Shown piece by piece: positions 37,215 through 40,970 of a DNA stretch of 40,970 nt. Numbering within the stretch: position 1 is the first letter of the stretch; each line of letters opens with the position of its first letter. The DNA lies in the NCBI GenBank assembly GCA_017935905.1, contig JAGBGO010000068.1:1-40970 (forward strand). Direction: 5' to 3'. Source of the DNA: Clostridia bacterium (GTDB lineage Bacteria > Bacillota > Clostridia > UBA1212 > UBA1255). The notes under the pieces are model-generated. The model saw only the letters and a list, made by a program, of their open reading frames with translations, was not told the origin of the DNA and ran no database searches. The translations under genes were made by a program, and so were the position numbers.

Positions 37215-37241
37215 TAAACGTCCTTTGTTCTTCCCAATATC

Positions 37242-37326
37242 CTTGTATCAGGCATCCCTACGTTGGCATTATCCAAATCAGGTTCTCGGTCGAAGGTTAC
37301 ACCTTCCTCTCAGCCTGTCATACAAG
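37242..37326 (-). ncRNA. TPP riboswitch (THI element)
   Basis: On the minus strand the conserved parts of the TPP aptamer occur in order: GGCTGAGAGG, then AGAACCTGATTTGGATAATG and CCAACGTAGGGATGCC. The closing stem P1 is CTTGTAT with ATACAAG at the two ends. It controls the thi operon through the terminator just downstream. The 37162-37476 gap is filled by this element, its terminator, and the two divergent promoters. Confidence 0.96.
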
Positions 37327-37352
37327 CTCCCGTTGATTCAATTGTCGAAAGT

Positions 37353-37409: not shown

Positions 37410-37438
37410 TTTACAAATGATTGCACGCATGGTATATT
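37410..37438 (+). promoter_or_regulatory. Promoter of the RiPP-like locus
   Basis: TTTACA (37410-37415), a 17-base spacer and TATATT (37433-37438) with an extended -10 (TGG before it), 38 bases before the peptide ATG. It faces away from the thi promoter, only 28 bases from that -35 box. Confidence 0.7.
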
Positions 37439-37476
37439 TAATTTAGCTATTACGTTTTAGAGAAAGGAATACGACT

Positions 37477-37686
37477 ATGAACGGACCAGATGATACAACC
37501 AGCACTTTTTGGGATAGAAGCGGTGCGGACTACGGTATCAACCGCGGCACCTTCGGCGATGGCATTGCCGGTTCTTTCTGTGGCGCCAACCGCACACCCT
37601 CTGACGATGATATTACCTTCTACTCCAATCGAGACAACAACGACTCCGATTTTTGGAAAGAAGTCGATTCATCCTGTGAATACTGA
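37477..37686 (+). CDS. Putative RiPP precursor peptide, acidic and aromatic-rich
   Basis: A 69-residue peptide of no family I know. It has AAAGGA nine bases before the ATG and lies 24 bases before a radical SAM/SPASM gene, the position expected of a substrate peptide. There are 12 Asp, 2 Glu and 10 aromatic residues, but only 2 Cys (35 and 67) and 1 Lys. Aromatic residues are followed within two or three positions by Asp, Asn or Glu again and again: FWD (11-13), YGIN (19-22), FGD (26-28), YSN (49-51), FWKE (59-62). The segment GTFGDGIAGSFCGANR is Gly-rich. No signal peptide or membrane helix. Such repeats suggest side-chain crosslinks or other modification at aromatic sites, which is inference. 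It might also be an unrelated small protein. Confidence 0.65.
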   Translation: MNGPDDTTSTFWDRSGADYGINRGTFGDGIAGSFCGANRTPSDDDITFYSNRDNNDSDFWKEVDSSCEY

Positions 37687-37710
37687 ACTTTGAAAGGAAC
37701 TACCGGCAAT

Positions 37711-38970
37711 ATGACCTTGCGCGACAGCTTGCGTACACGTGTGTACTGCGGGCAACTTGCCATTTATGACACAAAAACGCACCGAGAGCTCTTTCTCAAT
37801 CAAAGAGATACAGAGCTCTTTTTACGTTACTTACAAAAAGACGGTGCAATAGACCAGCCGGAGAAATTTGCGTCGATTATACATGGGATCAAACAATTTG
37901 ACCTATTGGAACAACAACCGCCTCTGCTTCTGCCCGGCAGGTTGCATAACGCCGATTTGTACACCTTTGCTTGTGCGCACAAGCTTTTGCATTCGGTTAC
38001 GCTGGAGCTCACGCACCGTTGCAATATGTGCTGCCGGCACTGCTACGTTGCCCCTGAGATGCAAAGCGGCAAGAACGAGCTGACCACCGCACAATGGAAA
38101 ACCGTACTGGCAAAGCTCAGAGATATGCAGGTAATGGAAATTACCTTAACCGGCGGTGAGCCGTTTATGCGTCAGGATGTTTTCGATATTCTCTCTTATC
38201 TACGGAAACTTGGTTTTACTGTTACCATCTACTCCAATGCCACGGTTCTGTCAGACAGCGATATTTTTCGGTTAGCGCAGGAGCAGGTCAATTGTTTCCA
38301 CACCAGCCTATATAGCCATATTTCACAAAAGCACGACGCAGTCACGGGACATAAAGGTTCCTTTGATAAAACGGTAGACGCATTGCACAAATTGCACACC
38401 GTGGGCATTGCCACCAATATCAAACACTTAATTATGCAGGGTATGGAAACGGATCTCGATGGTATGATCGCACTAGCGAAATCGCTGGGTGCATCCCTTC
38501 AACCGTCACTGGGCCTGTTTCCTTCACAAAACGGAGATTGCAGCCCTCTTTCGTGCGAAATCACCGATATGGATGCACTGACCTCTATTTACGAAAGTTG
38601 GCTGTCCGGAAACAAAATCTCCCACCAAGAAGAACGCGCGAGCGGTCCCCTTTGCCATGCAGGTCACGACCGTCTGAGCATCGCCCCCGATGGAACTATA
38701 TATCCCTGCAACGTACTGAAAATCCCGTTAGGAAACGTTTTACACGACGATATCGCTGAGATATGGGCGAACAGCGAAACACTGATTTCTCTGCGACAAA
38801 AGAAAATAGAAGAAATTTCCGGCTGTGCCGATTGCAAATTTGCCGGTTATTGTTCCTTTTGCCCTGCCCATTCTCTGGCACAAAACAGCGTTATTGACCG
38901 ACCCTACGCCGGTGCTTGCAAAAGAGCCGAGGCCCTGTGCCGCGCCGCCGAAAACGTACGCAATCTTTAA
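37711..38970 (+). CDS. Radical SAM/SPASM peptide maturase with PqqD/RRE-like N-terminus
   Basis: A 419-residue enzyme. The first 75 residues (HRELFLNQRDTELFLRYL, HGIKQFDLLE) look like the winged-helix PqqD/RRE fold that grips RiPP leader peptides. The radical SAM core has CX3CX2C in THRCNMCCRHCYV (Cys 104, 108, 111) and TLTGGEPFMRQDVFDIL as the SAM-binding GGE motif. A C-terminal SPASM domain has CHAGHDRLSIAPDGTIYPC and the CX2CX5CX2C set GCADCKFAGYCSFC plus a final Cys, enough for auxiliary [4Fe-4S] clusters. The frame is open to a TTG at 37690, but the ATG at 37711 is preferred (AAAGGA 12 bases upstream). The modification is unknown. No exporter or protease gene is next to it. Confidence 0.88.
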   Translation: MTLRDSLRTRVYCGQLAIYDTKTHRELFLNQRDTELFLRYLQKDGAIDQPEKFASIIHGIKQFDLLEQQPPLLLPGRLHNADLYTFACAHKLLHSVTLELTHRCNMCCRHCYVAPEMQSGKNELTTAQWKTVLAKLRDMQVMEITLTGGEPFMRQDVFDILSYLRKLGFTVTIYSNATVLSDSDIFRLAQEQVNCFHTSLYSHISQKHDAVTGHKGSFDKTVDALHKLHTVGIATNIKHLIMQGMETDLDGMIALAKSLGASLQPSLGLFPSQNGDCSPLSCEITDMDALTSIYESWLSGNKISHQEERASGPLCHAGHDRLSIAPDGTIYPCNVLKIPLGNVLHDDIAEIWANSETLISLRQKKIEEISGCADCKFAGYCSFCPAHSLAQNSVIDRPYAGACKRAEALCRAAENVRNL

Positions 38971-39033
38971 AAGGCGTAGAGAAAATCAGTGGATAGCCTG
39001 CGAAAAAATGCACAATGCTACAGGAAACAGCCA

Positions 39034-39075
39034 CCCGGCGGTAAGACCAAAAAGGGTCTCAACGCCGGGGGTTTT
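39034..39075 (+). terminator. Terminator of the RiPP-like locus
   Basis: CCCGGCG (39034-39040) pairs with CGCCGGG (39063-39069), with an inner AGACC/GGTCT stem, followed by a T-run (39072-39075). It ends the two-gene unit about 65 bases after the maturase stop. Confidence 0.85.
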
Positions 39076-39146
39076 ATCGTATTCTCTGATTGCTCTCCTC
39101 CCATCCTATTTACTATGTATACGCAGCGAAAGATTTGGAAATACTG

Positions 39147-39175
39147 TTGACATTACTTCGGCATACCGATATAAT
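39147..39175 (+). promoter_or_regulatory. Perfect SigA promoter of the toxin-antitoxin pair
   Basis: TTGACA (39147-39152), exactly 17 bases, TATAAT (39170-39175). The ribosome site AAAGGAGGG begins about 10 bases later, so the leader is very short. A promoter this strong is usually held down by its own product, here probably the XRE protein. Confidence 0.9.
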
Positions 39176-39197: not shown

Positions 39198-39785
39198 ATG
39201 TCCCTGAACGAAGCATTAGCACAAAAGAACATTACCAAGTACCGGTTGTGGAAAGAAAGCGGGGTACCCCAAGCAACCATTTCGGATATTTGCACCGGTA
39301 AGACTAACATCGAAAAGTGTTCTGCAGAAACGATCTATCGAATTGCAAAAGTGTTGGATGTTTCTATGGAGAGCCTGATTGCTCCTGCTGTAAGAAGCTT
39401 AGATGAGGAGCGCAGACGTCCTTCTTTTGAAGTGTTCAAAAGTAATACCTGTCATCGAGTGAAGGATATGGGCGATATCCCTTTTATGATCCAATTACTC
39501 AAGACAAATCAAATCCGAAAACTGTACGAAAAGAAATGGTATCCCGAAGCGCTTTATCTATTGGCTATGTTAGATTACCTTTCTAAGGAAAATAAAGTTC
39601 CAATCTGCAAAAACTACAATGATATTCGCAACAGCAAGTTGAAAAAGCCTATATATCCTTCGAGTGTAATTATTCTTTGTAAAACAACGAAGTCCGAGAC
39701 GCCGAAAGAAGAGTGCCTTCGTATGGCAATTCCTGAATTTTTGCGATTTAATATCGTAGAAAGCGAGGTGCGCAATGTCTTCTGA
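39198..39785 (+). CDS. XRE-family regulator, probable antitoxin
   Basis: A 195-residue protein. The first 70 residues are an XRE/Cro-type helix-turn-helix (ITKYRLWKESGVPQATISDI, then CSAETIYRIAKVLDVSMESL). The rest is a helical domain with KKWYPEALYLLAMLDYLSKEN, which I associate with antitoxins paired with DUF6036-type nucleotidyltransferases. A longer frame begins at 39090, but it runs through the promoter; the ATG at 39198 follows AAAGGAGGG. Its last 11 bases overlap the next gene, so the pair is translationally coupled. Codon use and base composition are more AT-rich than the thi genes, hinting at acquisition by transfer. Confidence 0.82.
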   Translation: MSLNEALAQKNITKYRLWKESGVPQATISDICTGKTNIEKCSAETIYRIAKVLDVSMESLIAPAVRSLDEERRRPSFEVFKSNTCHRVKDMGDIPFMIQLLKTNQIRKLYEKKWYPEALYLLAMLDYLSKENKVPICKNYNDIRNSKLKKPIYPSSVIILCKTTKSETPKEECLRMAIPEFLRFNIVESEVRNVF

Positions 39786-40494
39786 TATCCCTATTACAAA
39801 AGAGAACCTTGATACCTATTTAAAAGAAGTTGCAAAACAGTTTCGTAAACTGAACAAAAAGGCCATACCGGCAGACATCACTTTGATCGGCGGCGCATCT
39901 ATTTTGATTAACTATGGCTTTCGCGATTCCACTTATGATGCAGATGCGTTGATCCAAGCCTCTTCTGCGATGAAAGATGCTATCAATTATGTAACAGATA
40001 CTTTTGGGCTACCTAATGGCTGGCTAAATGAAGATTTCAAAAATACTAGATCTTATACGCCCAGACTTATACAGTATTCCAAGCATTATCGCACATTTTC
40101 CAATATTGTAAACATTCGAACAATTACCGGCGAGTACCTAGTTGCAATGAAGCTTATGGCATCCAGAAAGTATAAACACGACATTTCCGATATCGTAGGG
40201 ATTTTGTGTGAACATGAAAAACGCGGATCTCCCCTAACTTTCGAACAAATTGATAAGGCTGTGACTGATTTATATGATAGTTGGGAGAAAATGCCAGAAG
40301 ATGCACAAGTACTAATCCACAGCATTCTCGAAAACGAAGATATGGATGCATTATACAAGACTTATGCAAACGAGGAAGCAGCAGCCAAGAACGCATTGAT
40401 TACCTTTGACGATCAGTATCCAGATGCACTAACGGAAAACAACTTAGATGAGATACTTAATCATCTGTTGGAACGTCAAGAAGATAAGCAATAA
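39775..40494 (+). CDS. DUF6036-like nucleotidyltransferase, probable toxin
   Basis: A 239-residue protein with a nucleotidyltransferase core: TLIGGASILINYGFRDSTYDADAL (in parts, about 40-63), where the GG-x-S loop and the D-x-D pair stand for nucleotide and metal binding. A third acidic site may be in VNIRTITGEYLVAMKLMASRKYKHDISDIVGIL (about 120-150), which also matches the family (KLMASR, DISDI). Related AbiEii/MenT-type enzymes block growth by modifying tRNA and give phage defence. The upstream XRE gene overlaps it. Alternatively it is a housekeeping-type nucleotidyltransferase with a regulator, which I think less likely. Confidence 0.78.
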   Translation: MSSDIPITKENLDTYLKEVAKQFRKLNKKAIPADITLIGGASILINYGFRDSTYDADALIQASSAMKDAINYVTDTFGLPNGWLNEDFKNTRSYTPRLIQYSKHYRTFSNIVNIRTITGEYLVAMKLMASRKYKHDISDIVGILCEHEKRGSPLTFEQIDKAVTDLYDSWEKMPEDAQVLIHSILENEDMDALYKTYANEEAAAKNALITFDDQYPDALTENNLDEILNHLLERQEDKQ

Positions 40495-40681: not shown

Positions 40682-40806
40682 AGGTCATCGGAGGACAGTA
40701 CACCGTAGTGTAGGGGATCGTAAGCGCACCGCTTGCAGGCCGCCTGTCAGATGAGATGTCGAGTGAGCTCGGTTATTACTTAGGTAATAGCCGAGCTATT
40801 TCATTT
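40682..40806 (+). ncRNA. Structured 5' leader with terminator, riboswitch-like, class unassigned
   Basis: The closing stem is TCATC (40685-40689) with GATGA (40750-40754), continued by GACAG (40694-40698) with CTGTC (40744-40748). It encloses hairpin TACAC-CGTA-GTGTA (40699-40712), the unpaired GGGGATC (40713-40719), hairpin GTAAGCG-CAC-CGCTTGC (40720-40736) and GGCCGC. Downstream is a 14-bp terminator-like stem, AGCTCGGTTATTAC/GTAATAGCCGAGCT (40766-40797), with a T-rich tail. CGAG/CTCG (40760-40771) can compete with its left arm. The order promoter, junction RNA, terminator, ribosome site is that of a ligand-sensing leader. I could not match it to a known class. Confidence 0.6.
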
Positions 40807-40817
40807 TGGAGGTACTT

Positions 40818-40970
40818 ATGAAGAACACAAAAGTCATTCTCGTTCCGTTAACTGCGGACGACCGCGAACAATTTATCCTTGATAATCAATGGGCATTCAA
40901 GTACGGCGCAATTGAAGAATTTGGCAAGCGGGACGACCATCTTGATTTTGACGGAGAAATTATCTCTCGC
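40818..40970 (+). CDS. GNAT-family N-acetyltransferase (cut by window edge)
   Basis: Fifty-one codons from an ATG with GGAGGT upstream to the end of the window. The N-terminus VILVPLTADDREQFILDNQW and the segment KRDDHLDFDGEIIS look like the start of a small GNAT acetyltransferase family in Clostridia. The acetyl-CoA-binding motifs would lie outside the window. It is expressed behind the structured leader, so its substrate may be linked to whatever that RNA senses. Confidence 0.7.
   Translation, partial: MKNTKVILVPLTADDREQFILDNQWAFKYGAIEEFGKRDDHLDFDGEIISR

Follow-up and report, generated by a model that had tools for sequence, protein, structure and literature searches.

The window analysed here (40,970 nt, contig C21 in a draft genome of 1.88 Mb and 84 contigs from a Clostridia bacterium) carries two adjacent genes which probably form a minimal RiPP cassette. 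A 69-residue peptide would be modified by a radical SAM/SPASM enzyme bearing a predicted RRE, and we put the probability of this reading at about 0.72. The general type of locus is known, and the precursor is new to the families searched. The reading is favoured by the tight same-strand pair, the coding signal of the peptide ORF, the full set of SPASM cysteines in the enzyme and the RRE-bearing maturases found as structural neighbours of its model. The first-pass annotation had also seen a RiPP-like peptide and maturase locus here, and this view holds: a coding ORF stands beside an enzyme of peptide-modifying type, in one predicted transcription unit. The features are as follows.

37238-37343, reverse strand: TPP riboswitch heading the thiamine operon; the 5' side of this operon adjoins the RiPP-like pair
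37410..37438, forward strand: promoter-like site TTTACA-17-TATATT, the second hexamer preceded by TG (extended -10), 10 of 12 positions, a consensus match only
37463..37468, forward strand: Shine-Dalgarno sequence AAAGGA of the peptide ORF, 8 nt 5' of the ATG, read from the sequence
37477..37686, forward strand: ORF of the putative precursor peptide, 69 aa with 10 aromatic residues, 12 Asp and 2 Cys
37693..37698, forward strand: Shine-Dalgarno sequence AAAGGA of the maturase, 12 nt 5' of the ATG, read from the sequence
37711..38970, forward strand: radical SAM/SPASM maturase, 419 aa, from Pfam PF04055 and PF13186 and NCBIfam neighbours
37711..37944, forward strand: predicted RRE-like N-terminal domain, residues 1-78, from AlphaFold2 models with low to medium pLDDT
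38005..38436, forward strand: radical SAM domain, residues 99-242, with GGE at 148-150
38653..38838, forward strand: SPASM domain, given as residues 315-376 by Pfam and carried on to about 403-410 by the CX2CX5CX2C block and the final Cys
39029..39079, forward strand: intrinsic-terminator-like GC-rich hairpin followed by TTTT, dG -28.4 kcal/mol

Peptide gene

The peptide had been described as 69 residues long with ten aromatics and two Cys, encoded 24 bases 5' of the maturase, and coordinates and translation agree with this. The ORF is very probably translated, because its codon score and a good Shine-Dalgarno sequence come together. With the other genes of the contig as codon-usage reference, its frame scored +0.12, within the range of 0.07-0.33 that holds 5-95% of real 69-codon pieces. 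Scores were -0.18 and -0.65 for the remaining forward frames over the ORF and ranged from -0.09 to -0.45 on the reverse strand.

Asp, Asn and Glu make up 20 of the 69 residues (29%). The two cysteines, Cys35 and Cys67, show no recognisable partner spacing, and Cys67 is the third residue from the C-terminus. No family of Pfam, NCBIfam or PHROGs matched the peptide, in agreement with the earlier statement that it fits no known class. No homologue was found in plasmids, viral contigs or the 391 class-level genomes, and this lack of a conserved precursor counts against the minimal cassette. A weak match in genome G045 falls inside a frame of 2878 aa and was put down to chance. Self-alignment gave no significant internal repeats (best score 28 vs 23.9 in shuffles, p=0.20).

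Residue patterns in the peptide

The spacing from aromatic residues to Asp, Asn or Glu is at chance level, because the peptide is rich in both kinds of residue. Under composition-preserving shuffles, seven of the ten aromatics have D/N/E at +2 or +3 against 4.9 expected (p=0.14), and at +2 alone there are 4 against 2.9 expected (p=0.32). This spacing had been offered as a signature of the peptide and as the mark of a cyclophane precursor, and neither proposal is supported: the spacing is what composition gives, and no named cyclophane former (such as XyeB or YhhB) is among the best 25 NCBIfam families of the maturase.

The arginines give a better pattern, as a lead and not a proof. All four close an aromatic-x(0-3)-[D/N]-R unit (FWDR, YGINR, FCGANR and FYSNR), each Arg directly following an Asp or Asn that itself has an aromatic within the 4 residues ahead of it. 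The full motif covered 4/4 Arg in 16 of 100,000 shuffles (p=1.6e-4, post hoc, the motif having been picked after seeing the peptide), and its [D/N]R part alone stands at about 0.04 after correction over simple residue-class-offset tests. The post hoc 4/4 count is in favour of the minimal cassette. The spacing between aromatic and [D/N]R is variable, which does not sit easily with a single ring-forming specificity and speaks against it, and this also weighs against the cassette reading. From the sequence, Arg as the border of a unit and the unit as a ring-forming one are equally possible.

Maturase and its family placement

The presence of radical SAM and SPASM domains is certain from the sequence, with Pfam E-values of 1.5e-17 and 2.4e-12, respectively. 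The CxxxCxxC motif is C104/C108/C111, and the full set of seven SPASM-type cysteines is found (315, 333, 372, 375, 381, 384, and 403 or 410).

The maturase fell below the cut-off for every one of its best 25 NCBIfam models. AhbD ranked first, and the nearest models also include TIGR04053, ScmE, NirJ2, WgkB (in the top five, above SkfB and AlbA), GeoRSP, MftC, PqqE, SkfB, AlbA and StsB. Since these models mix C-C formers with sactisynthases and hold no cyclophane formers, the enzyme is placed by its sequence on the side of the superfamily with both the aromatic C-C formers (PqqE, WgkB) and the sactisynthases (SkfB, AlbA). Prediction of function from such placement is difficult, as cautioned in PMC6231123.

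WgkB (tryglysin) and SuiB (streptide-like) are likewise radical SAM/SPASM enzymes and target an aromatic residue in their peptide; SuiB is the best structural match of the maturase model. However, the peptide has no W-G-K or KxxxW motif and the locus has no quorum-sensing regulator or exporter; tryglysin membership was rejected on a score of 114.5 bits against the NF050035 cut-off of 650 and the missing WGK. The sactisynthases SkfB and AlbA have the layout of RRE, radical SAM and twitch/SPASM that is predicted for the maturase, but the maturase is far under their cut-offs (SkfB 87/300, AlbA 85/850 bits), and the 69-aa peptide with two Cys is unrelated to their substrates in sequence.

Elsewhere in the genome, a separate gene (L003) encodes a canonical SCIFF maturase, which also has radical SAM and SPASM domains and an RRE-like N-terminal region. 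Its presence would suit a clostridial host. It scores 752 bits to TIGR03974, whereas this model is outside the best 25 of the window maturase. The SCIFF/ranthipeptide assignment was rejected for the pair on this point and on the cysteines, two vs six in about 45 residues. The earlier argument from only two Cys is sound against SCIFF, but it leaves thioethers in general, as sactipeptides generally carry 1-4 links (PMC8326336).

RRE-like N-terminal domain

A PqqD/RRE-like N-terminus had been proposed for the maturase. Its PqqD part found no sequence match in Pfam, and the domain matched none of the N-termini of the relatives by sequence; the RRE part gained support from the predicted fold, and we consider an RRE-like domain quite probable from the models. 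AlphaFold2 predicted strands at 7-12, 15-20 and 25-28 and helices at 31-43 and 50-61. Whether an alignment of 40 sequences was supplied or none, the three strands and helices came in RRE order; pLDDT was about 40-63 with the alignment and 48-84 for the piece folded alone. In SkfB, the RRE is described as a sheet of three strands and then a helical bundle (PMC6231123). For residues 1-75, whose structure model had been suggested as a check on the annotation, an RRE-like fold was predicted.

Against the PDB, the full-length model was led by SuiB, SkfB and CteB, with TigE at rank 10, ahead of PqqE and anSME. Because the radical SAM barrel dominates such a search, the N-terminal piece by itself was folded and then compared with 350,542 chains. 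RRE-bearing chains took ranks 1, 2, 4, 7, 8, 9, 11, 13, 16, 18 and 27, including TbiB1 (5v1u/5v1v), SuiB (5v1q/s/t) and lasso synthetase B1 (6jx3); TbiB1, the first, is a lasso-peptide RRE bound to its leader. The E-values were 0.1-0.9, none individually significant, and together with the low to medium pLDDT they count against the minimal cassette.

Transcription unit and genome surroundings

The peptide stop and the maturase ATG are on the same strand, 24 nt apart, and the unit holds no further gene. The claim that the pair has its own promoter and terminator is borne out at the level of predicted elements, by the 10/12 promoter-like site at the 5' side and the hairpin with T-run at the 3' side. 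It was also correctly noted that no exporter or protease is present, since none is encoded in the contig; Peptidase_C39 found no match across the whole draft genome. The lack of a linked exporter or protease is a further point against the cassette reading.

The thiamine operon (31.5-37.2 kb, minus strand) is divergent from the pair. In the sister genomes G011 and G004, the thiamine genes are shared as far as the riboswitch region (74% DNA identity), with unrelated DNA beyond it, and the pair is absent from both. Because the DNA diverges past the shared thiamine genes, the pair is an accessory locus there. Its GC content is 49-50%, in line with 47.6% for the contig.

At the 3' side of the hairpin, a Cro-type HTH gene (HTH_26) overlaps a DUF6036 nucleotidyltransferase gene (window 39198-40494). 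These two have a perfect promoter-like site at 39147-39175 and GC of 39-40% vs 47.6% for the contig, and they read like a toxin-antitoxin-type or recently acquired pair. A structured-looking leader at 40690-40818, with a perfect hairpin gagctcggttattac...gtaatagccgagct, lies just 5' of a truncated ORF at about 40819; it matched no Rfam family at the gathering threshold.

Proposed function and alternative explanations

In the proposed mechanism, the 69-residue peptide would be the substrate, and the N-terminal RRE-like domain of the enzyme would bind it. At the radical SAM cluster (C104/C108/C111), a 5'-deoxyadenosyl radical would form and remove a hydrogen from the substrate; the second electron would pass to the SPASM auxiliary clusters, and side-chain cross-links would result. 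The likeliest targets may be the four aromatic-x(0-3)-[D/N]-R units, where the ring of the aromatic residue could form a C-C bond with a side-chain carbon close by, or Arg could serve as a cleavage border. Export and cleavage, if they take place at all, might depend on host proteins whose genes lie elsewhere. Radical SAM cross-links of aromatic-Arg and aromatic-Asn/Asp are known chemistry (PMC11002830, PMC13361665). We judge the odds of some aromatic C-C cross-link, the classical three-residue cyclophane included, to be about even.

Thioether formation is rather unlikely, although it has several points on its side. Here Cys35 and/or Cys67 would be linked as donor with an acceptor residue, in the manner of sactipeptides or ranthipeptides, and the aromatics would be incidental. 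The sactisynthase SkfB is the best solved-structure match of the maturase by sequence (2.9e-20), AlbA, SkfB and StsB are within the best 25 NCBIfam families, the low number of links in sactipeptides would suit two cysteines, and the closest relatives among the matches listed (L022, L024, L027) adjoin single-Cys SSH-type peptides. However, the peptide has just the two cysteines without partner spacing, and the C-C formers WgkB, PqqE and MftC are also near, with AhbD first and WgkB above SkfB and AlbA. A modification other than aromatic C-C or thioether, or none at all, is similarly given a minor share in our judgement.

A triceptide system would form three-residue cyclophanes at Omega1-X2-X3 units such as FWD, FGD, YSN and WDR, and we hold it to be improbable. 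Its enzymes (XyeB, YhhB and others) share with the pair an aromatic-rich substrate with Asn, Asp or Arg nearby, and characterised 3-CyFEs do use Asn, Asp, Arg and Ser as X3 (PMC11002830). But Omega1-X2-X3 units are not enriched in the peptide, and the maturase did not fall in a triceptide/3-CyFE family: no named one is in its best 25, though the identical search with the SCIFF maturase L003 does bring up YhhB and XyeB. We hold it quite improbable that the enzyme has some other target and that the 69-aa ORF does not encode the substrate or is no real gene. The missing homologues in the collections searched and the other peptides beside remote relatives would fit such a case, and against it stand the codon usage, the good Shine-Dalgarno sequence, the 24-nt gap, the common promoter-like site and the lack of any other gene in the unit.

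If the minimal cassette works as proposed, it would be among the smallest possible RiPP systems, with one peptide and one self-sufficient enzyme. A new RiPP class, with a repeat-bearing precursor, an RRE-fused enzyme, aromatic-linked rings at variably spaced Arg units and Arg as cut borders, is a doubtful prospect. A single orphan locus settles no open question by itself. The putative substrate is unlike any Pfam, NCBIfam or PHROGs family, and the enzyme is near C-C and thioether cross-linkers alike; it means that this minimal pair is an easy target for two-gene co-expression, with a fair chance of new chemistry.

Relatives of the maturase and their cassettes

Among 97 relatives and genomes from the order (31), class (391) and phylum (398) levels, no relative exceeded about 32% identity over a long stretch. 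Close homologues were also absent from viral contigs, phages and plasmids, and from genome contigs, where exact peptide patterns gave none and the profile gave none among the matches listed. The closest enzymes among these matches were L022, on a plasmid of Macrococcoides bohemicum, and L024 and L027 from Streptococcus, which were 28-32% identical across residues ~78-392 (E from 1e-45 to 3e-48). Remote relatives (up to ~32% identity) adjoin unrelated peptides, none of which resembles the 69-aa peptide.

A discrete PqqD-like gene adjoins the enzyme at L022 (6e-14) and L024 (2e-7) in Pfam searches, and similar small genes were seen by inspection at L004, L005, L008, L013 and L029. Such genes beside the enzymes of remote relatives are in favour of the minimal cassette.

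The L022, L024 and L027 cassettes comprise PqqD, two radical SAM genes, a 40-49 aa CSGxSSH peptide and an ABC exporter. By this motif they look like the SSH subfamily of RaS-RiPPs, a streptococcal subfamily of unknown function (PMC13361665), extending outside Streptococcus. They share with our pair a radical SAM/SPASM enzyme with the CX2CX5CX2C SPASM block and a short peptide, and have a PqqD/RRE protein where our pair has the predicted RRE-like domain, but differ in the separate RRE gene, the second radical SAM enzyme and the ABC exporter, and their single-Cys peptide has no similarity to the 69-aa one. The CSGxSSH cassette spans L022:3730-7806 and L024:3673-7907, and is common to the Macrococcoides plasmid and streptococci.

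Other peptides were noticed beside radical SAM genes. A further small orphan pair of RiPP-like type is found in a Gastranaerophilales MAG (L028:478-2000), where the ORF of a 60-aa peptide with an acidic N-terminal part, ending ASWSQRDFNPWCGSCSTSV, overlaps that of a radical SAM protein of 456 aa, extended at its N-terminus. At L053, L079, L081 and L082, radical SAM genes adjoin GG-leader peptides whose repeats are of the YGI/LYGI kind (e.g. PLYGIKPLYGI). At L034, L035 and L057, Cys-rich repeats of the ACSACTACTAC type occur near the C-terminus of peptides encoded immediately 5' of radical SAM genes.
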